64,000 bases of DNA. Origin: an uncultured Alphaproteobacteria bacterium (GTDB lineage Bacteria; Pseudomonadota; Alphaproteobacteria; GCA-2731375). The stretch spans positions 62,001 through 126,000 of the forward strand of contig CATOSZ010000005.1 of the NCBI GenBank assembly GCA_951812805.1, written 5' to 3'. Made by a program: the position numbers and the translations under genes. Shown here in pieces: positions 35,117 through 45,760 of this stretch (positions are counted from its first letter, which is position 1; every line of letters begins with the position of its first letter). The notes below the pieces were generated by a model. That model worked only from the letters and a program-made list of their open reading frames with translations. It did not search any database and was not told the origin of the DNA.

Positions 35117-35560
35117 TCACACGCGCACCACACCGAAGGCCAGAAGCCCCAACCCGATGACCAGGACCATGGCACCGGTGAGCGCGATGACGCTCGGGCG
35201 ATCGCTGTCGCCCGCTCCGGTCAGGACGAGGTCGCTCGGATCGTCGCGCCGATAGACGATCTCCACCACGCTCTTGTCGGCAACGAGGTTCGCATAGAGC
35301 TCGGCGCCGACCACCACGTCGCCTTCGATCTTCTGACCGTCCGCGGCGGTGAAGGCATAGGCGATGCGGGAAATGCTCTTGCCGTTGTCCGCGACCTCGA
35401 CCCATGTCGCGGTCACCTGGGCGGCGACGGCGTGGCCGTTGGCGAGGATGTCCTGGCGGTGCGCCCCGTACCAGATGCCGCTGCTCAAGACGCCGGCACC
35501 GGACAGCGAAAAGACCAGCCCGACCCAAAAGTGCGCTCGACTGCGTATGCGAATCGCCAT
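35117..35560 (-). CDS. DUF3592-type membrane protein
   Basis: 147 residues with two membrane helices, near residues 11-29 and 124-144, flanking an extracytoplasmic beta-rich domain. The middle (HAVAAQVTATWVEVADNG ... YAFTAADGQKIEGDVVV ... VEIVYRRDDPSD) matches the DUF3592 pattern. Function unknown. It is convergent with amn and divergent from the ydbH-like gene. Confidence 0.75.
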   Translation of the reverse strand: MAIRIRSRAHFWVGLVFSLSGAGVLSSGIWYGAHRQDILANGHAVAAQVTATWVEVADNGKSISRIAYAFTAADGQKIEGDVVVGAELYANLVADKSVVEIVYRRDDPSDLVLTGAGDSDRPSVIALTGAMVLVIGLGLLAFGVVRV

Positions 35561-35667
35561 TCCGCGGCCCCCTCTCCGCCACAGGGAAAATATCCTTCGA
35601 CCGGGATAATTCGGCCAATCACGATCCGGCGATATCGCGAACGCGACGGAGGCCGTACTCTTCGCCC

Positions 35668-38600
35668 ATGCGCCGCGCCGCCCTCATCCTGTTCTGCGTT
35701 CTCATCCCGGTTCTGGCGGGCGGAGCGGCTGCGGCCTGGATTTACCGGATCGATCTCGCCCGCATTGCGATCGACGACGGCCTGGCCCGCACCGGGCTCA
35801 CCGCGGCCAGTTATGAAATCGAGCGTTTGGACCTCACCGGCGCGCGGCTGCGAAATGTCGCGCTGGCGGACGGTCTCGCCGGCGAGGCGATCGACGTCGC
35901 CTACGACCTGTCGACCCCCTGGGCACCGCGCCTCGGCGAAATCCGGCTGACCCGCCCCAGGCTCGACCTGTCGGCGCCGGCGGTCCGCGCCCTTTTCGCG
36001 GGCGACGACGAGGGCGGCGGGGACGGATTCGATCCGGGCCCGCTCGCACTCCACGTGACGGGAGGCGAACTCGACTGGCAAAGCCCGCTCGGCCCCCTGC
36101 GGATCGCGCTCGATGGAAAAGCGCACCGCGCCGCGGACGGCACCTACGGCATCGAGACGACCCTGGTTGCCCGGGCGGAACGGGGCCGGGTCGAAGCCAC
36201 GCTCGAGCTTGCCGGATCGCCCGCCGGCGACGTCACGGGCGCCGCGCGTCTTTCGGGAGGTTTCCTCGAGTTCGAACAGGCACGCGTCGACGGCCTCACA
36301 GGTGACATCGGCTTTACTGTCGCGGGCGGCGCCATGGCGGCGTTGCACGTCGAACTGGCGGAGCTGGCGCTCTCCCTCGACGGCGAGCGGGTGGCGCGGG
36401 GGGCGCTGTCGCTCAGCCGGCAGGGCGACATCGTACTCGCCGGGTTTGCCGGCAGCGCCTTCGGTGCCGAGGGCGGAATCGAAGTGTCGGGCATCCCCAA
36501 CCTCGAAGCCGGCCTGATCCGTCTGCAACGCCTGTCGATCGAGGCGCGCGCGCCCCACCACGCGGCGCTCTGGCGCCATGCCGGGACGGCGGCGCCGACG
36601 GCGGGCGCGGTTGCCGTCAGCCTCGCCGGCCATGACCTCAGCCTCGATGTCGCCGCGCTCGGCGCCGCCCCGTTGGCGGCATTGCCGGCGGTCCTGGCGG
36701 ACGGCCAGCTCTCCGGTGTCGTCGAGATCAAGGACCTGGCCCTGCCCGGTCTCACCTCCAACATCTCCGGCGCCGCGAACCTCGACATCGCGGCGCCCGC
36801 GGGCGAGCTGGAGGCAAGCCTCGCCGTGCCCGCCCTCTTCACCGTCGGCGCGATCGACCGGGCCGCGTTCACCGGCTGGACGCCGCCCGCCGATATGCTG
36901 GATGGCGGCGGCAGCCTCGCCATCGCGCCGACACCCGCCCTGCGCCTGCGCCCCTTACGGGACCCGGAAGGCGCGATCTCGGGCCTGGCCCTGAGCGGCG
37001 GCGCGCAACTCTCACTCAGCCTCGGCGCCGGTTTCGCCGTCGAGGCGACGACGAGCCTGGAGGGGCGTCTCGATCAAAACGGTCTGGCCGGCCGCCTCAC
37101 CGCCGCACCGACGACCGCGCGTCTCGACCGATTCTCCGCCGCCGGTCACCGCATGCGGCGTCTCGCCTTCACCGGCGCACTCGGCTACGGGGACAAGGGC
37201 TTCACGGCCGGTGGTCGCCTCAGCGGCGAGTATAAGCCCCGCGTCGCCGCGCTGCCGGACCTCGGCTGGATCGTTGCCCGGCTTCCCCTGGAGGCGGCGT
37301 TCGATGGCAGCCGGTTGACCTTAGGCCTCCGTGCGCCGGGTGACCTGCGCCTGCCGGCGATCCGCCTTGGCGAAAAGCTCACGCTGCCCGCGCCGACGGT
37401 GGTGACGCTGGCCAAGCCGGCGGGCCCGGTCCTCGACCTCGACACAGGCAGCGGACAGTTCGCGTTGAACCTCCCTCTTCGGGCAACGGCCTTCCCCCTG
37501 CAGGTGCGGACGGCCAACGACACGCTGGCGCTGGAGGTCGCCCCGGGTGCGGTCGCCGTCACGTTCGACGACGACGGAAGCCGGATCGCCCTTTCGGGCG
37601 GTGCGCTCTCCCTGCCCGCCGAGGGCGTCTACCTCCAGGGCATCGACGCGGCGATCACGGACCTGGCGACGGCCGAGTTCAAGGTCGGTCAGATCGACTG
37701 GACGGATGCGCCGGTCGAACTGCCCGCGCTGCTCGCCCTCGGCCGCGCCCGGATCGGCGATGAGGACCTGGGCGTCGGCCTCTCCCTGCTCGACGCGGAA
37801 CAGCGCGTGCGTCTCGACGCGACGCTTCGCCATCACCTGGACGAGGCGACGACGGAGGTCGAGGCGACGCTGGTCCCCCTCGACTTCACGCCGGACGGTT
37901 TGCAGCCGGGCGACCTGGCAACGGAGCTGGAGATATTGACCGACGTCATCGGCCAGCTGTCGGGTGGCGTAAAACTGTCGTTGCGGGATGGCGAACTCAC
38001 CGGCACGGGCGTCCTCGAGCTTGCCGATATCGCCTTCGAGACCGAGGCGGCGAGCGTCGACGGCCTCGACGTCCGCTTCGAGTTCGACCGGATCTGGCCA
38101 CCGCGCACCGCACGACCCGCCGTCCTCAGAATCGCGAACGTCGTTTCCGGCGTCGAGGCGAGCGAGGTGAGCGCCGAGTTGTCGCTCGCCGGCGACGCGA
38201 CACGGCCGTTGATTCTCGGCGTCGACGAGGCCCAGGCGACAACCCCGTTCGCCCGGGTCACGCTCGACCCGCTGCGCATCGATGCCACGTCCGGGCGGCA
38301 CGACATGACGGTGCGCTTGAGCGAGGTCGACCTCGCCGCCCTTTTGTCCCGTCTCGATGTCGAAGGGGTCGCGGGCAGCGGGCGCCTCTCCGGCGCGATC
38401 CCGATCACCGTGCTCGAGGACAACTTCACGGTGACGGACGGCCGCCTGGCGGCCGAAGCGCCCGGCGTCATCAAGATTTCCGTCGAGGCGTTGAACCAGT
38501 CGCTCACCGGGACGGCGGAGCAGGTGAAGCTGCTGCTCACCGCGCTCGAGGATTTTCATTATTCGAGCCTGGTGCTGGCGTTGGAGAAACCCGCCGACGG

Positions 38601-38766
38601 CGGCGGTCGATTGAAGCTCTTCATCGACGGCCACAATCCTGCCGTACTCAATGGCCATCCTTTCGATGTGAACATCGATCTGCGGGGCCGTTTCGACGAT
38701 CTTCTGGACACCGCGCTCCGGGCCTATCGCTTGTCCGACCAGGCCATACGCGCTACCGTCAAGTGA
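35668..38766 (+). CDS. YdbH-family AsmA-like intermembrane lipid transport protein
   Basis: 1032 residues. An N-terminal membrane anchor (about 4-25) is followed by a very long beta-rich repetitive region, the expected groove-shaped bridge across the periplasm. The C-terminal part carries the YdbH-domain pattern with IPITVLEDNFTVTDGRLAAEAPGVIK and HNPAVLNGHPFDVNIDLRG. In E. coli, YdbH with the lipoprotein YnbE links inner and outer membranes for phospholipid movement and is partly redundant with TamB and YhdP. Both companion genes follow here, which strongly supports the assignment. The ATG at 35668 is chosen because it begins the anchor. Confidence 0.88.
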   Translation: MRRAALILFCVLIPVLAGGAAAAWIYRIDLARIAIDDGLARTGLTAASYEIERLDLTGARLRNVALADGLAGEAIDVAYDLSTPWAPRLGEIRLTRPRLDLSAPAVRALFAGDDEGGGDGFDPGPLALHVTGGELDWQSPLGPLRIALDGKAHRAADGTYGIETTLVARAERGRVEATLELAGSPAGDVTGAARLSGGFLEFEQARVDGLTGDIGFTVAGGAMAALHVELAELALSLDGERVARGALSLSRQGDIVLAGFAGSAFGAEGGIEVSGIPNLEAGLIRLQRLSIEARAPHHAALWRHAGTAAPTAGAVAVSLAGHDLSLDVAALGAAPLAALPAVLADGQLSGVVEIKDLALPGLTSNISGAANLDIAAPAGELEASLAVPALFTVGAIDRAAFTGWTPPADMLDGGGSLAIAPTPALRLRPLRDPEGAISGLALSGGAQLSLSLGAGFAVEATTSLEGRLDQNGLAGRLTAAPTTARLDRFSAAGHRMRRLAFTGALGYGDKGFTAGGRLSGEYKPRVAALPDLGWIVARLPLEAAFDGSRLTLGLRAPGDLRLPAIRLGEKLTLPAPTVVTLAKPAGPVLDLDTGSGQFALNLPLRATAFPLQVRTANDTLALEVAPGAVAVTFDDDGSRIALSGGALSLPAEGVYLQGIDAAITDLATAEFKVGQIDWTDAPVELPALLALGRARIGDEDLGVGLSLLDAEQRVRLDATLRHHLDEATTEVEATLVPLDFTPDGLQPGDLATELEILTDVIGQLSGGVKLSLRDGELTGTGVLELADIAFETEAASVDGLDVRFEFDRIWPPRTARPAVLRIANVVSGVEASEVSAELSLAGDATRPLILGVDEAQATTPFARVTLDPLRIDATSGRHDMTVRLSEVDLAALLSRLDVEGVAGSGRLSGAIPITVLEDNFTVTDGRLAAEAPGVIKISVEALNQSLTGTAEQVKLLLTALEDFHYSSLVLALEKPADGGGRLKLFIDGHNPAVLNGHPFDVNIDLRGRFDDLLDTALRAYRLSDQAIRATVK

Positions 38767-38821
38767 TCGTGCGTCCGGCTCCGCGTCCGGCGTCACATCG
38801 ACCGGTTCCCTGGAGTTCGCC

Positions 38822-39028
38822 ATGCGCGCAGCCCTCGACCCTCGCCTCGCCATGATCGCACCGCTGGTGTTGGCACTGTCGGTCATGGCCTGTTCGCCGA
38901 CCGTGAAGGTCGAGACACCGACGGAACCGATCACCATCAACCTGAACATCAACCTCTCGGCCGAGGTCGTGCTGAAGCTGGAAGAAGCAGCCCAGGACGA
39001 CATCGCGCAAAACCCGAACGTGTTCTGA
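38822..39028 (+). CDS. YnbE-like outer-membrane lipoprotein
   Basis: 68 residues. The signal peptide ends in a lipobox, LSVMAC, with lipidated Cys24. The short mature part (TPTEPITINLNINLSAEVVLK) matches YnbE, which stacks on the YdbH bridge at the outer membrane. It lies 55 bp after the ydbH-like gene, and its stop overlaps the next start (TGATG). Confidence 0.88.
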   Translation: MRAALDPRLAMIAPLVLALSVMACSPTVKVETPTEPITINLNINLSAEVVLKLEEAAQDDIAQNPNVF

Positions 39029-39399
39029 TGATGAATATCGCTTTGAAACTCCCCGCCCCGGCCCGCTTCTGGCTGGCCCTCCCGCTCCTGATGGCCCTGC
39101 TGTTCGCGCTCTCGCCCTCGCCCGCGTCGGCCCAGTCGCTCGACAGTTATCGCGCCAAAGGGCAGATCGGTGAGCGTTACGACGGCTACGTCATGGCAAC
39201 GCAGAAGAAGCCGTCGTCGAAGATCAAGAAGATGGTCCGCTCGGTAAACAGCAAGCGGCGTTCCATCTACAACAAGCGGGCCAAACAGCAACGCGTGTCT
39301 GCCAAGCAAGTCGGCCGCGTCTATGCCCGAACCGTACTCTCGAAGGCGCCGCGCGGCACCTACTTCCTGAAGGAAAACGGCAAGTGGGTGCGCAAGTGA
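39028..39399 (+). CDS. YdbL-family (DUF1318) periplasmic protein
   Basis: 123 residues. A signal peptide (AR-F-WLALPLLMALLFALS, cleaved near ASA) precedes a basic DUF1318 domain with KAKGQIGERYDGY-like sequence (here RAKGQIGERYDGYV) and VNSKRRSIYNKRAKQ. YdbL is thought to regulate or chaperone YdbH-YnbE. Two adjacent ATG codons (39028, 39031) are possible starts. The 3' end overlaps the next gene. Confidence 0.88.
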   Translation: MMNIALKLPAPARFWLALPLLMALLFALSPSPASAQSLDSYRAKGQIGERYDGYVMATQKKPSSKIKKMVRSVNSKRRSIYNKRAKQQRVSAKQVGRVYARTVLSKAPRGTYFLKENGKWVRK

Positions 39400-40838
39400 G
39401 CACGCCGATCTCGGACGGCTTGATCGTCGTCGCCAAGCGCGACTGCCCGACCTGCACCCTGATCGAGCCGGTCTACCGCCAGCTCGCCGACGGGCCCGCC
39501 GAACTCCTCGTCTACAGCCAGGACGACCCGGCCTTCCCCGATGCGATCGCCCAGCCCATCGACGACCGCGAGCTCGAAGCCTCCTGGCGGCTCGACATCG
39601 AGACCGTGCCGACGCTGATCCGCATGGCCGGCGGCCGTGAAGTCGCCCGCGCCATCGGCTGGCATCGCGGGGAATGGGAAGAGGTGTCGGGCCAGGCCGC
39701 GCTCGGCCCCGCGCTGCCCGAGGCCCAGCCCGGCTGCGGCTCGCGCACCTACGACCCGGGTATGGAGGAGGTGCTGGAACTGCGCTACGGCGAGGCGCCG
39801 ATGGCAGCCCGGCGGATCGAACTCGGCGGCTATGAGGACCCGGTCGAGAGCGCTTACGAACGCGGCTGGAGCGACGGCCTGCCGGTCGTCCCGCCGACGG
39901 AAATCCGGGTGCTGCGCATGCTGAAAGGCACGAAGCGCGATCCGGGCGAGGTCCTGGGCCTGGTGCCGCCGAACCTCGCCGAATGCACCGTCGAGAAGGT
40001 TGCGATCAATGCGGTGATGGCCGGCTGCAAGCCCGAATACATGCCGGTCGTGCTGGCCGCGGTCGAGGCGGCGCTGATCCCCGACTTCTGCATGCACGGC
40101 CTGTTGTGCACGACCTATTTCTCCGCGCCGGTTCTCATCGTCAACGGACCGGTAGCCCAGGCCATCGGCATGAATTCGCGGGAGAACGCGCTCGGCCAGG
40201 GCAACCGGGCGAACGCCACGATCGGGCGCGCCCTGCAGCTGGTGATCCGCAATGTCGGCGGCGGCGTGCCGGGCGGCATCGACCGGGCGACGCTGGGCAC
40301 CCCCGGAAAGTACACCTTCTGCTTCGCGGAGGACGAGTCGAATTCCTGCTGGACGCCGCTCGCGGTCGAGCGCGGCATCGCGCCTGGGCGCTCCGCCGTG
40401 ACGCTGTTCGGCGGCGACGGCGTGCTCGGCTGTTTCGATCAGAAGAGCCGCACACCGGAAAGCCTGACCGCCTCCCTCGCCATGGCGATGAACGCGATCG
40501 GCCATCCGAAGAAGGCGCAGGCGCACGACGCCCTGCTGGTGATCTCGCCGGAGCATCTCAGGACCTTTGCGAACGCCGGATGGAGCCGCAAGGACGTTCG
40601 CGCGGCTCTCGATCGGGCCTCGGAACGCCCGGGCGACGACCTGGTCTACGGCGCGGGCGGCATCGCCGAGGGTATGCCCGAGAGCGTGGCCGGCCAGCGC
40701 CTGCAGAAATTCCGTCCCGACGGCCTCAACATCGTGCGGGCCGGCGGCGAGGCCGGCATGATGTCGGCGATTATCGGCGGCTGGGCCGCGACGGGCGACA
40801 AGGGAAGCCAGATGGTAACCAAGGAGGTGGGCGAATGA
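39396..40838 (+). CDS. Thioredoxin-fold protein, partner of the UGSC selenoprotein
   Basis: 480 residues from a GTG at 39396 that overlaps the ydbL stop (GTGA). A GTG at 39384 would add four residues. Residues 1-105 form a thioredoxin-like domain with an active-site CPTC (Cys17, Cys20) and the cis-Pro region TVPTLIRM. The remainder (about 125-480) is a domain of unknown function rich in conserved-looking Cys: ECTVEKV, AGCKPEY, DFCMHGLLCTTYF, TFCFAED, SCWTPL, GCFDQK. There is no signal peptide, so it is cytoplasmic. Its stop overlaps the UGSC gene start. The pairing suggests electron or substrate transfer between the two proteins; the actual reaction is unknown. Confidence 0.8.
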   Translation: MSTPISDGLIVVAKRDCPTCTLIEPVYRQLADGPAELLVYSQDDPAFPDAIAQPIDDRELEASWRLDIETVPTLIRMAGGREVARAIGWHRGEWEEVSGQAALGPALPEAQPGCGSRTYDPGMEEVLELRYGEAPMAARRIELGGYEDPVESAYERGWSDGLPVVPPTEIRVLRMLKGTKRDPGEVLGLVPPNLAECTVEKVAINAVMAGCKPEYMPVVLAAVEAALIPDFCMHGLLCTTYFSAPVLIVNGPVAQAIGMNSRENALGQGNRANATIGRALQLVIRNVGGGVPGGIDRATLGTPGKYTFCFAEDESNSCWTPLAVERGIAPGRSAVTLFGGDGVLGCFDQKSRTPESLTASLAMAMNAIGHPKKAQAHDALLVISPEHLRTFANAGWSRKDVRAALDRASERPGDDLVYGAGGIAEGMPESVAGQRLQKFRPDGLNIVRAGGEAGMMSAIIGGWAATGDKGSQMVTKEVGE

Positions 40839-41359
40839 GCCAATCAACCGTATTGCTGGACCCGACGGCGGAGACGACGCCGGCGAAACGCCAGCGCAAG
40901 GCGCCACCGGCGGCGCTCGAGGGGCTGACGATCGGCCTGCTCGACATCGGCAAGGCCCGGGGCGACGAGTTCATCGACCGGGTCGAGGAACTGATGGCGG
41001 AACGCGGCATTATCGTGCGGCGCTATGCCAAACCGACCAACACCAAGACCGCCCCGGTCGAGGTGCTGCAGGCGATCACCACGGAGTGCGACCTCGTCGT
41101 CGAAGCCTTGAGCGATTGAGGCTCCTGCACGTCGTGCAGTTTGCATGACATTGCGGATCTCGACTCTCGCGGCATCCCCGGCGGCATGATCGCCACCACG
41201 GCCTTCGAAAAGGCCGCCGAAGCGCAAGCGGTCTCGCTCGGCTTCGAGCCGGGCATCGTCTACGTGCCGCATCCGATCCAGGATCGGACCAACGCGGAAA
41301 TCCGCGCTATTGCCGAGGATGCCTTCCAGGACATCCTGGGCATGATCACCGCGCGCTAG
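40835..41359 (+). CDS. UGSC-motif selenoprotein (Sec at UGA 41117-41119)
   Basis: 174 residues when the TGA at 41117-41119 is read as selenocysteine 95. The frame continues as Sec-GSCTSC, i.e. the UGSC motif, then IADLDSRGIPGGMIATTAFEKAA to a TAG at 41357. Without recoding one gets a 94-residue stub and an orphan 72-residue fragment starting at a TTG. The start is set by a near-perfect AAGGAGG at 40821-40827, 7 bases before the ATG, overlapping the upstream stop. The UGSC family is known from selenoproteome surveys, with Cys in place of Sec in some members; its reaction is not established. The N-terminal half (GLTIGLLDIGKARGDEFIDR) resembles a nucleotide- or cobalamin-fold beta-alpha unit. 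Confidence 0.88.
41131..41149 (+). other. Bacterial SECIS hairpin of the UGSC gene
   Basis: Counting the U of UGA as 1, GTCGTGCA (15-22) pairs with TGCATGAC (26-33), 8 pairs with one G-U, closing a GUU loop at 23-25. The G-U in the loop falls at the same distance as G23-U24 of the E. coli fdhF SECIS. A competing hairpin CTGCAC/GTGCAG exists at 9-23. Folded by eye. Confidence 0.7.
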
Positions 41360-41408: not shown

Positions 41409-42446
41409 ATGAGCGAAGCCTTTCTCACCACCGTCGTCGGCAGCATGCCGAAACCGATCTGGCTGCAGGAACAACTGCCGCTGAACGCCGAGGGCAAGCA
41501 GGTGCACGGCGCCGGCGCCGACTGGCGGTTTTCCGGTGAGACGCTGGACGTGGCACTCGACGACGCGGTGCGACTGTCGATCCACGAACAGCAACACGCC
41601 GGCATCGACATCGTGTCCGACGGCGAGCAGCGGCGGAAGTCCTACCTCACCCACATCACCCGGGCGTTGGGCGGGGTCGACTACACGACGCTCGCCAAGA
41701 AATGGACGCGCAACAATCGCCGCCTCGCGGAGGTCGGGCGCTGCATCGGGCCACTGCATCGCCAGGCGCCGATCCTGGTCGACGACCTGGCCTTCGCGCT
41801 GGCCGAGGCGGACCGACCGTTGAAGGTCACGCTCCCCGGCCCGATGACCATCGTCGACACCCTGGCGGACGAGCATTACGGCGACGAGCGGGCCATGTCG
41901 ATGGCCGCGGCCGAGGCCATGAACGCCGAAGCCCGCGCGCTCGACGCCCTCGGCCCCGCCGTCATCCAGTTCGACGAGCCGGTGTTCTCGCGCTATCCCG
42001 AAAAGGTCGCGGACTGGGGCATCGAAGCCCTGGACGCAGCACTCCGCGGGCTTTCGGCGCGGACCGCCGTGCATGTCTGCTACAGCTATCCCATGCCGGG
42101 CGTGCCGCGGCCGATCCAGGACAGCTACCCCACCATCCTCGCCGCGCTGGAACGTTCCGCGGTGGACGAGTTGGCGTTGGAGTTCGAGGCCTCCCGCCTC
42201 GATCCCGCCCTGCTGTCGCTCTGTCCCTCGAAGACCGTCCTCTTTGGCTGCATCGACAACGGCATCGACGCGGTCGAAACGCCCGAAGCGGTCGCCGACA
42301 AGCTGCTCGCCGCCGCCCGCCACCTGCCGGCGACGCAGATCCAAGCCGCGCCCGATTGCGGCCTGGTCCCGCTTTCGCCGGCCATCGCCCGCGCCAAGCT
42401 CGAGACCATGGTCGCCGGCGCCCGCCTGGCGCGCGAGCGGCTCTAA
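41409..42446 (+). CDS. MetE C-terminal-domain-like methyltransferase
   Basis: 345 residues, corresponding to the catalytic C-terminal barrel of cobalamin-independent methionine synthase without the N-terminal half. The zinc ligands are visible in order: His and Cys in VHVCYSY, Glu in ALEFEASRL and Cys in APDCGLVPL. The N-terminal TTVVGSMPKP and SDGEQRRKSY segments are also typical. Stand-alone members of this kind are often involved in methyl transfer from methylated substrates to a thiol, or in core methionine synthesis. The stop codon lies within the 17-bp target duplicated by the following IS, so the coding sequence is intact. Confidence 0.87.
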   Translation: MSEAFLTTVVGSMPKPIWLQEQLPLNAEGKQVHGAGADWRFSGETLDVALDDAVRLSIHEQQHAGIDIVSDGEQRRKSYLTHITRALGGVDYTTLAKKWTRNNRRLAEVGRCIGPLHRQAPILVDDLAFALAEADRPLKVTLPGPMTIVDTLADEHYGDERAMSMAAAEAMNAEARALDALGPAVIQFDEPVFSRYPEKVADWGIEALDAALRGLSARTAVHVCYSYPMPGVPRPIQDSYPTILAALERSAVDELALEFEASRLDPALLSLCPSKTVLFGCIDNGIDAVETPEAVADKLLAAARHLPATQIQAAPDCGLVPLSPAIARAKLETMVAGARLARERL

Positions 42447-42457: not shown

Positions 42458-43871
42458 TGTAGGTGACGCGTGAAGTTGCCCGCTTTACGTAGCGAGTGAA
42501 TTGACCGCTTTTGATGATGTTGTCCCTGTGGGGATGTGGTCAAGTCGTAGACTTGTCCACATCCCCACAGGGCGCGGAAGCGAGATGGCGTCGCGATCGT
42601 TCACGCCGCCTCGCTCCGTGAGCTGTTAGCCTCTTCCGTCGGCGGGAAGTCAGCGATGCGGTGAGGGCCCCAGAAGATGGCGATGGCGCCGTCGGGGTAT
42701 TCGTTGAGCCGCACTTTGGTCTTTGCAAAGTGGGGTCTGAGACGCGAAGGCGGGATCTGTAGCCGCCGGCCCTGCCAGTGCACGGTGTTGTCGTTGGCGA
42801 CTTGCCGGGTTTCGCGGCAACAGAGGATATCCCGCCATTGTTCGGGCCGGCACGAGACCCAAGCGGATGTGGGATCCTCTGGCGGCACGGCGAAGCGCTT
42901 GTTGTGGTCGGGGATATAGACCTCGGCGATGAAGCGGTTGGCGAGATCGATGTTGGTGATGCCGGCGAGCGCGAGTTCGTTGACGAGGCGGTCCTGAAGG
43001 GTTCGGAAGAGCCGCTCGGAGCGTCCCCTGGCCTCGGGCGAGTAGGCCGGAATGTGCTCGATGCCCAGCTCGGCCAAGGCGCGGTCGACCTGGGTGAGCT
43101 GGGTCTTGGAGACCTTGCCGCCGGCCTCAGGCGTGTGGAAGTAGTGGCTCCCCCGATCGGTATAGAGGGCGCAGAACAGGCCCTTGGCATGGATCGTCTC
43201 GGCGAGGCCGCGGAAGCTGGAGGCTGTGCCCTCCTCCGCGACAAGGAAGGCCGAGGTGATCTCGCTGGTCGCATCGTCCATGGTCACCACCAAGTCGAGG
43301 GGCGCCGCGCCCGCGAGCCAGGCATGGCTGGAAGCGTCCTGGTGCAGCATCATGCCGGCCATCGGCCGGCGCGGACGCTTGCGCCGGTGCGCGCCACGCC
43401 GCTTGGCCGGCTGGACATGGCCCGAGCGCTGCAGGGCGACACGGGTCGTCGTGTAGCCGAGCTTGTAGCCATGCTGCTCGACCAGCTTCTCGTGGAAGTG
43501 CTTGACCGTGAAGTCACCGTACATCTCCTCCCAGAGCGCTCGAGCCCGCTCCAGCTCGCTCTCATCCGCCCGGTGTGGCGAGGGCTTGCCGATCCGGCCG
43601 TCCAGCAGGCCAGCCGCCCCCTCCTCCCGGTAGCGATCCCGCCAGCGGCGGAACGTCCGCTCGTCCATCCCCAATATCTCGGCAGCCTCGAGCTGGCTCA
43701 GCTCGCGACGCTCGTGACGCGAAAGTATCTCCTCAAAACGCATGATCCGGATCTCCTGACGGATAAGTGCCGGTCCCATCCAAGCCTCCAAAAAAAAAAC
43801 CACTTTGGAGACATCTCAGAACCGGTCACTTCGTGCGCTACATAATCCGGTCAACTCACGCGTCACCTACA
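42458..43871 (-). mobile_element. ISNCY-family insertion sequence (IS1202-like)
   Basis: 1414 bp bounded by inverted repeats TGTAGGTGACGCGTGA (16 bp identical, then imperfect with a second shared GTAGCG). It is flanked by a perfect 17-bp direct repeat. Inside the ends, motifs like GTGAATTGACCGCTTT and GTGACCGGTT recur and may be transposase sites. The long duplication fits the IS1202-like group. The perfect duplication and intact transposase suggest a recent insertion. Confidence 0.9.
42601..43779 (-). CDS. ISNCY family transposase
   Basis: 392 residues from the ATG at 43779, placed 5 bases after GGAGG. A later ATG at 43743 (MRFEEILSRHERRE) is also possible. An N-terminal helix-turn-helix (LSQLEAAEILGMDERTFRRWRDRY) is followed by a basic linker and an rve-type DDE core. 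Its acidic residues lie in MLHQDASSHAW, LYTDRGSHYFH and SPEARGRSERLFRTLQDRL. The C-terminal region has the QGRRLQIPPSRLRP segment seen in this family. A ten-A run upstream of the start lies outside the coding region. Confidence 0.9.
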   Translation of the reverse strand: MGPALIRQEIRIMRFEEILSRHERRELSQLEAAEILGMDERTFRRWRDRYREEGAAGLLDGRIGKPSPHRADESELERARALWEEMYGDFTVKHFHEKLVEQHGYKLGYTTTRVALQRSGHVQPAKRRGAHRRKRPRRPMAGMMLHQDASSHAWLAGAAPLDLVVTMDDATSEITSAFLVAEEGTASSFRGLAETIHAKGLFCALYTDRGSHYFHTPEAGGKVSKTQLTQVDRALAELGIEHIPAYSPEARGRSERLFRTLQDRLVNELALAGITNIDLANRFIAEVYIPDHNKRFAVPPEDPTSAWVSCRPEQWRDILCCRETRQVANDNTVHWQGRRLQIPPSRLRPHFAKTKVRLNEYPDGAIAIFWGPHRIADFPPTEEANSSRSEAA

Positions 43872-43888: not shown

Positions 43889-44101
43889 TTGTGGCGAGGC
43901 GCGGAGAACACTAAGATTCTTAAATTCTTGGTAAATAATCGTTAACCGCCTTCTGGCCTTCGGGATAGGGCCACCTCGAGTACCTTGAAATTGTGGATGT
44001 CTATAGTGCGTGCATGAATTCAGACGCGATTGTTCGCCCGACCGCTGACGCATGCTGATCATCGGACGGGGCCTGCACAGCAGCCGGGAGGGGGAAACGG
44101 C

Positions 44102-45760
44102 ATGGCTACGGATAGATCGAAGTTAGTTGCGCAATCGGGGCTATGGCGGGGATTACATCCCGGAATGGGCCTCGCCGCGAAGGGCATGGTCGTCGCCTTC
44201 GTGGTCTTTACGGTTCTCAACGTCGAGTTCGCCAATTCCATCTATACGGCAATACGCGGTTGGATCGAGTCGGCGCTGAACTGGTATTACATCTCGGCGC
44301 TGGTCATCATGATGTTCGTCTGCTTCTACCTGATGTGCAGCCGATTCGGCAGCATTCGGTTGGGCGACGACGACAGCCGACCGGAATTCTCCAATTTTTC
44401 CTGGTTCGCCATGCTTTTCTCGGCGGGCGTCGGCATCGGCCTGCTGTTCTTCGGCATTGCCGAGCCGATGTTCTATTTCGACAATACCAAGCCCTGGGGC
44501 TATCCGAACAATCCCTTCGCCGACCAGGCCATGGTGACGGAAATGAACGAGGCGCGCGCGGTCCATGCGATGCGCGTGACCTACTATCATTGGGGCTTCC
44601 ATGGCTGGGCCGTCTACGTGATGGTCGGCTTGAGCCTGGCCTACTTCGGCTTCCGCAAGAAGCTGCCGCTGACGCTCAGATCGTCGCTCTATCCGATCAT
44701 CGGCGAGAAGATCTACGGCCCGGTCGGCCATGCGGTCGACCTGCTCGCGGTCTTCGGCACGGTCTTCGGCGTCGCCACCTCGCTCGGCCTTGGCGTCTCA
44801 CAGATGGCGGTCGGGCTCAATCACCTCTTCGGCGTCGATCCCGGAACGACGACGCAGCTCATCCTGATCGTGGTGATTTCCATCGTCGCCACCTTCTCCG
44901 CCGTCTCCGGCGTCGGCAACGGCATCCGGATCATTTCGGAATGGAACATCTGGCTCTCCATCGCACTGCTCGCCTTCTTCCTCTTCGGCGGGCCGACGAA
45001 CTGGCTGCTCGGCTTCTTCGTCACGACGACGGGCGACTATCTCTGGAACGTCATTCCGATGGGCTTCCAGATCTTCAATGGTGAAGGCGCTTCGTCCTGG
45101 CAGGGCAATTGGACCATTTTCTATTGGGGCTGGTGGATATCCTGGGCGCCCTTCGTCGGCATGTTCATCGCCCGCATCAGCCGGGGCCGGACGATCCGCG
45201 AATTCATGATCGGCGTCATGTTCGTGCCGACCACGCTCGCCTTCTTCTGGCTCTGCATCTTCGGCGGCAGTGCCATACATGCCGAGTTGACCGCGGCCGG
45301 CGGCGTCGGCACCGCGGGCATTGCCGACCTGGTCCGCGGTTGGAACCTGCCCGCCGCCCTCTACGGGACGATCGAACAGGTAACCGTGCTCGATTGGCTG
45401 AACTGGGCGATGGCGGCGCTTGCGACCTTCCTGCTGGCGACCTGGTTCATCACCTCGTCCGACTCCGGCACCCTGGTGATCACCACCATGCTGTCGATGG
45501 GCGACGACGATCCGCCGCAGAAATTCCGCATCGTCTGGGGCCTCGGCGAAGGTTTCGTCGCGGGGGCGTTGTTGCTGGCCGGCGGTCTCAAGGCCTTGCA
45601 GACCGCCTCCATCGCAGCGGCCCTGCCGGTGAGCGTCGTCCTGCTCCTGATGACCTGGGGCGTCGTGAAATCCTTGCACGAGGATTCGAGCGCGGTGGCC
45701 GCACCGGAGGAGGAGTTCGCCCCCGACGGCACCAGCCTCAGCGGGGAGTTGCGAGCCTAA
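44102..45760 (+). CDS. BCCT family transporter
   Basis: 552 residues with about 12 membrane helices. The family signature GWWISWAPFVGMFIARISRG is complete, and WNVIPMGFQIFNGEG-type residues occur nearby. BCCT carriers import betaine, choline, carnitine or DMSP with sodium or protons, or exchange them. The start at 44102 follows GGAGGGGG. The short C-terminal tail lacks the long osmosensing extension of BetP. A possible metabolic partner is the dimethylglycine/sarcosine-type dehydrogenase at 13028, but they are far apart. Confidence 0.93.
   Translation: MATDRSKLVAQSGLWRGLHPGMGLAAKGMVVAFVVFTVLNVEFANSIYTAIRGWIESALNWYYISALVIMMFVCFYLMCSRFGSIRLGDDDSRPEFSNFSWFAMLFSAGVGIGLLFFGIAEPMFYFDNTKPWGYPNNPFADQAMVTEMNEARAVHAMRVTYYHWGFHGWAVYVMVGLSLAYFGFRKKLPLTLRSSLYPIIGEKIYGPVGHAVDLLAVFGTVFGVATSLGLGVSQMAVGLNHLFGVDPGTTTQLILIVVISIVATFSAVSGVGNGIRIISEWNIWLSIALLAFFLFGGPTNWLLGFFVTTTGDYLWNVIPMGFQIFNGEGASSWQGNWTIFYWGWWISWAPFVGMFIARISRGRTIREFMIGVMFVPTTLAFFWLCIFGGSAIHAELTAAGGVGTAGIADLVRGWNLPAALYGTIEQVTVLDWLNWAMAALATFLLATWFITSSDSGTLVITTMLSMGDDDPPQKFRIVWGLGEGFVAGALLLAGGLKALQTASIAAALPVSVVLLLMTWGVVKSLHEDSSAVAAPEEEFAPDGTSLSGELRA

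Follow-up and report, generated by a model that had tools for sequence, protein, structure and literature searches.

The window analysed here is a 64,000-nucleotide stretch of a contig from an uncultured member of the Alphaproteobacteria, and the locus of interest within it comprises two overlapping genes on the forward strand. The second of these (positions 40835-41359, + strand) encodes a UGSC-family selenoprotein of 174 amino acids when TGA is translated as selenocysteine (Sec), which is residue 95. The sole internal stop of this frame is the TGA at 41117-41119 (+), read as Sec within the motif U95-G-S-C98-T-S-C101, and our translation agrees in this with a preliminary description of the same DNA. 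The strong Shine-Dalgarno sequence reported there is also present, as AGGAGG at 40822-40827 (+), 7 nt upstream of the ATG at 40835 and within the 3' end of the upstream gene. That upstream gene (39384-40838, +) encodes a protein of 484 amino acids, hereafter the partner, and its stop codon overlaps the UGSC start codon (ATGA); longer apparent overlaps between partner frames and UGSC were discarded as an artefact of translating through the TGA. Directly upstream of the partner gene, at 35404-39399, lie genes for a YdbH-like protein and a DUF1318 protein, the latter in a frame that overlaps the GTG start of the partner gene. On the other side, UGSC is followed by a MetE-like gene (41409-42446), which we rejected as a functional partner since none of the orthologous loci searched has it as a neighbor, and then by an ISNCY-family transposase gene (42601-43803, - strand; 354.9 bits, cut-off 250). 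Some 2.7 kb beyond UGSC, at 44030-45760, is a gene for a BCCT-type betaine/choline transporter; grdH of Enterococcus gilvus is likewise followed by a BCCT gene, which is possibly a coincidence.

Comparison with family models supports the proposed identity of the second gene, its product matching both PF24696 (E = 1e-38, 133.6 bits, cut-off 25) and NF041046 (131.8 bits, cut-off 125) over its whole length. The UGSC motif, with Sec or Cys at its first position, forms an aligned column across 31 sequences, in which the TGA of the window gene falls on the Sec/Cys column of its 30 relatives. The residues that follow the TGA align with these relatives over the whole length as well and are therefore part of the protein, so that a possibility that would have refuted the preliminary description, namely that the downstream segment lies outside the protein, was not borne out. 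The window protein shares the motif, the in-frame UGA and the SECIS element with the known family and does not itself differ from it. We conclude that the gene is a real selenoprotein gene of the UGSC family, with the incorporation of selenium itself being inferred. What we add to this family is a link to an unnamed partner and a link to the GrdB/PrdB reductases. As the preliminary description had noted, UGSC is listed in the literature without an established reaction (PMC13188914, PMC9312934); surveys of marine and freshwater environments place it among the most abundant prokaryotic selenoproteins (255 GOS sequences, PMC2398784), likewise without assigning it a reaction.

A hairpin with an 8-bp stem (GUCGUGCA/UGCAUGAC) is predicted by folding at 41131-41149 (+), exactly where it had been placed before; its loop has a G-U at +23/+24, counted from the U of the UGA, and the window gene thus meets the test for a SECIS element directly after the UGA with an apical-loop G-U. 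The SECIS element of E. coli fdhF has the same G23-U24. Because the hairpin sits in coding sequence, synonymous recoding with the codons of each locus was used as the null model. Taken alone, the window hairpin is only mildly unusual, since its minimum free energy is reached by 6.7% and its full stem by 3.2% of the recodings. Across the family, at least seven of the eight stem pairs together with the GU at +23/+24 are found in 77 of 83 UGSC genes, where 2.5 would be expected under recoding. This 83-gene test establishes that the SECIS element of UGSC genes is real and under selection. The genome also contains selB (446.7 bits, cut-off 242.25) and a tRNA-Sec (70.2 bits, gathering threshold 47) with the anticodon UCA (TCA in DNA), which answers the suggestion that both be looked for and removes a lack of selenocysteine machinery as grounds for rejecting the gene.

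Eight UGSC genes, all with an in-frame TGA at the motif, were found in this same genome, six by a first search and two more within N-terminal fusions, a count confirmed by a later search; the genome has three UGSC-partner fusions. A profile of the partner retrieved 80 GTDB loci, 78 of which have UGSC within the stretch retrieved, and the Sec position in these 78 is TGA in 74, TAG in one and Cys in two, with one gene cut off before the motif. The TAG occurs in the UGSC gene of Candidatus Blastococcus massiliensis (L091:9281-9283), followed by the same SECIS hairpin; it fits the UAG-Sec code already published for Geodermatophilaceae, UGSC included (PMC5330540), and is therefore not new. These data bear on the trivial alternative that the UGA of the window gene is a true stop, yielding a truncated product of 94 amino acids with the downstream part untranslated. 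Nothing speaks for it except the stop codon itself, and the conservation of the downstream residues in 30 relatives, the presence of Cys or UAG-encoded Sec at the same position elsewhere, the selection on the SECIS element and the presence of selB and tRNA-Sec in the genome leave it with practically no credibility.

The distribution of UGSC is that of its partner. Of 289 genomes sampled from the class in one draw, 28 contain UGSC, the same 28 contain the partner, and the other 261 have neither. SelB was detected in 27 of the 28 (the exception is a genome 77% complete) and in 41 of the sampled genomes overall. Relatives of the partner flank or are fused to all eight UGSC genes of the genome studied here, and in 73 of the 80 GTDB loci the two genes are same-strand neighbors, overlapping as NTGA in 34 of these loci. 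Judged from this co-occurrence and gene order, UGSC is obligately paired with an unnamed partner of about 340 amino acids, an association that is new here. The expectation that the neighborhood of UGSC would be informative was correct, although the informative gene is the upstream one (39384-40838) and lies outside the interval of 40835-41359 originally singled out.

The partner consists of an N-terminal thioredoxin-like domain (39384-39698, +; about residues 9-105, with a CPTC motif) and, as delimited by alignment, a core of about 340 amino acids (39819-40838, +) that belongs to a family without a Pfam or NCBIfam model. Its AlphaFold2 model is confident (pLDDT 94.5, pTM 0.90). The N-terminal domain meets the test for a thioredoxin fold with a CxxC motif by both sequence (E = 1e-4 to thioredoxins in the PDB) and fold (Foldseek probability ~1.0), and relatives of the partner give Thioredoxin_2/TraF matches. 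Searches of the window partner against Pfam and NCBIfam found no family for it, and the core gave no significant match among PDB folds. The core is probably the domain called 'Unknown_1', known from marine metagenomes as a fusion to UGSC (PMC2398784), although the Unknown_1 sequence was not compared; the portions of that account available to us give no partner, fold or co-occurrence data.

Where the partner lacks a thioredoxin domain, genes of the thioredoxin system adjoin it in four loci: trxB lies beside the Variovorax SRS16 and Roseovarius THAF8 copies, trxB and trxA adjoin the Arthrobacter copy, and a fusion in the genome studied here (L040) has a TrxB-like neighbor that scores 233.8 bits to TIGR01292, below the equivalog cut-off. 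Other neighbors vary. In seven of the 73 pairs (L060, L061, L065, L077, L078, L085 and L100, from gammaproteobacteria and betaproteobacteria, including Halopseudomonas pachastrellae and Pseudohongiella), selA and then selB directly follow UGSC, and the Sec machinery is therefore encoded together with UGSC. A thiolase gene lies directly 3' of UGSC in 11 of the 73 pairs (e.g., L079:7066-8250), mostly in gammaproteobacterial metagenome-assembled genomes and often with a small conserved protein encoded upstream of the partner, and CaiB/BaiF CoA-transferase genes occur near some UGSC or partner copies. These neighbors point weakly to acyl-CoA metabolism as the substrate area. Since the operon neighbors of the thioredoxin-fused subfamily are mixed, the substrate class remains open.

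Profile comparison related UGSC to the selenoprotein subunits of known reductases. Aligned by hhalign to a profile of GrdB/PrdB, the UGSC profile scored 63.6 over 112 columns with Sec on Sec (96.1% probability; E = 3.1e-9, for one comparison), as against scores of no more than 20.9 for 30 column-shuffled profiles and 17.6 for the partner profile. The GrdB/PrdB profile was built from a modest number of sequences, 15 GrdB/GrdF/GrdH/PrdB and PrdB-like proteins; with just three PrdB-like sequences, an earlier comparison had given a weak match (13%), and a single UGSC sequence matched TIGR01917 only with E = 0.077. When 31 UGSC members were scanned singly against 18,950 models, the five most frequent non-UGSC families were GrdB (TIGR01917; listed by 23 of the 31, best E = 2.6e-5), GrdF (20, best 1.6e-5), TIGR01918 (13), GrdH (9) and PrdB (4). 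Over the full length of TIGR01917, the window protein scored 11.9 bits, far below the cut-off of 602.2, and it had no match to PF07355. On this profile evidence, we take it that UGSC is homologous to the Sec-bearing domain at the C-terminus of subunit B of the glycine, sarcosine, betaine and D-proline reductases, a relation that is new here and of which we found no earlier statement in the limited literature searched.

UGSC shares the U-G-x-C-T-x-C motif with GrdB, GrdF and GrdH (TIGR01917, NF040794, NF040795), whose Sec domain is homologous to it, and the UxxCxxC described for GrdB (PMC13188914) is the same motif. GrdB-type subunits differ from the window protein in being about 430 rather than 174 amino acids long and in working with a GrdE-type pyruvoyl subunit, to which the UGSC partner shows no detectable relation. 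D-proline reductase PrdB (TIGR04483), which has the same Sec domain in a stand-alone short subunit and whose reductive C-N cleavage serves as our model reaction, adjoins the gene for the pyruvoyl proprotein PrdA, whereas UGSC has the unrelated partner instead. We rejected the partner as a PrdA/GrdE homologue since there was no profile signal, its scores against PrdA and GrdE profiles (14-21) lying within or near those of shuffled profiles (18-24), and no pyruvoyl companion of the GrdE/PrdA type was recognised. Two requirements for GrdB/PrdB membership, a sufficient full-length score and a companion pyruvoyl subunit, were thus tested for and not fulfilled, and UGSC was therefore not assigned to that family.

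Searches by sequence found no solved structure of a GrdB/PrdB relative. In the AlphaFold2 model of a 552-amino-acid fusion of UGSC and partner (pLDDT 84.4, pTM 0.65), the UGSC portion has the predicted order beta-alpha-beta-alpha-beta-[Sec]-alpha-beta-alpha-beta-alpha. Foldseek matched this portion to flavodoxin, WrbA and AzoR at a probability of ~1.0, and it failed the thioredoxin-fold test. The UGSC fold is thus predicted to be flavodoxin-like rather than thioredoxin-like, which puts in doubt the thioredoxin-like fold assumed so far and suggested in one earlier study (PMC2398784). This prediction weighs on the idea, assumed in the selenoproteome literature, that UGSC is a general thiol-disulfide or peroxide oxidoreductase, a thioredoxin-like protein whose UxxC motif cycles through a selenenylsulfide as it acts on proteins or peroxides. 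The UxxC motif and the thioredoxin coupling are what such an enzyme would have, but the predicted flavodoxin-like fold, the profile match to GrdB/PrdB and an obligate partner core of 340 amino acids without a known oxidoreductase relative all count against it, and we regard it as unlikely.

We consider it reasonably probable that partner and UGSC instead form a selenoenzyme of two components, driven by thioredoxin, in which Sec-dependent reduction proceeds as in GrdB/PrdB but another protein activates the substrate; the substrate is unknown and the function inferred. The comparison with GrdB/PrdB is made because the Sec domain is homologous and because of the link to thioredoxin, and here, as in all our functional statements on the pair, the inference is from sequence and predicted structure. 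Glycine reductase, which resembles the enzyme proposed here in having thioredoxin as its reductant, consumes thioredoxin dithiol (PMC10298544), and trxA3 and trxB3 lie within the clostridial glycine reductase operon (PMC10880999); thioredoxin has been argued against as the reductant of D-proline reductase (PMC10298544). In both reductases, a Se-carbon adduct is believed to arise from the selenolate and to be resolved by a thiol to a selenenylsulfide (PMC10298544, PMC10880999). For action of a GrdB-type Sec subunit on a carbon-halogen bond, there is a precedent in FarB/FarE, proteins of a GrdB-like operon for which cleavage of fluoroacetate at the C-F bond has been proposed (PMC10838667); FarB/FarE are GrdB/GrdE relatives of anaerobes, whereas UGSC is not of full length and has no GrdE. 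By analogy, the partner core would bind and activate a small substrate, and the selenolate, positioned at a helix N-terminus, would attack an electrophilic carbon or another center bearing a leaving group, so that a C-N, C-S or C-halogen bond would be broken. The Se-adduct could then be resolved by Cys98 of the UxxC motif, giving a selenenylsulfide from which the fused CPTC thioredoxin domain would restore the selenol before being recharged by NADPH and thioredoxin reductase. The partner would thereby stand in for PrdA/GrdE, the pyruvoyl subunit, although no relation between the two could be detected, and the activation step of GrdB chemistry is therefore without a shown counterpart. This scheme suggests that the pair breaks chemical bonds by reduction, in the absence of reaction data, and the presence of eight paralogues in a single genome hints at several substrates.

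A branch of plasmid-borne fusions bears on whether Sec is catalytic at all. In Sporomusa termitida (L129:6332-8056) and Vibrio europaeus (L133:6362-8047), UGSC-partner fusions carry Met-Gly-Thr-Ser at the UGSC position and adjoin genes for aconitase X and DUF126. Since Met stands in place of Sec and Ser in place of the resolving Cys, this branch cannot use the proposed redox chemistry, and its redox center seems to have been lost. A partner that persists beside a domain devoid of Sec and Cys, next to aconitase X and DUF126, is what would be seen if the partner core alone were the catalyst (e.g., a lyase or hydratase) and UGSC a redox-regulatory or electron-transfer subunit whose Sec merely keeps the partner reduced. 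Weak fold matches between the partner and class I fumarate hydratase would agree with this, but they are not significant (E = 4e-3, TM 0.2), and we make no claim of a fumarate-hydratase-like identity. The retention of TGA (74), TAG (one) or Cys (two) among the 78 GTDB loci with UGSC points to a catalytic Sec, as does the homology of UGSC to a catalytic Sec domain, and we find a purely auxiliary role of UGSC rather improbable. A further plasmid fusion, in Neorhizobium galegae (L134:6347-7369), has Cys in a CSTC motif and an apparent frameshift in the partner, and it adjoins genes for malonyl-CoA synthase and decarboxylase.

More broadly, the thioredoxin-coupled selenoenzyme we favor may, as a tentative proposal that could well prove wrong, represent a widespread and unrecognised second lineage of the GrdB/PrdB type, with a new family instead of the pyruvoyl subunit and with electrons coming from a built-in thioredoxin. 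This lineage would be one of bacteria that for the most part are not Stickland fermenters and, with Cys, of haloarchaea, and the eight paralogues per genome would amount to a substrate-diversified system of C-N or C-X reductases. The GrdB/PrdB link, the obligate partner and the thioredoxin supply together turn a protein of unknown function into one with testable chemistry, and the partner is a second gene that would need to be co-expressed in any assay of UGSC.

The same genome contains four further selenoprotein genes that are PrdB/GrdB-like (L028-L031, at C8:328150, C3:1748973, C3:1462852 and C2:138247), each with an in-frame TGA within a U-P-x-C motif. Together with the UGSC genes, they bring the number of selenoproteins that the genome appears to encode to at least 12.
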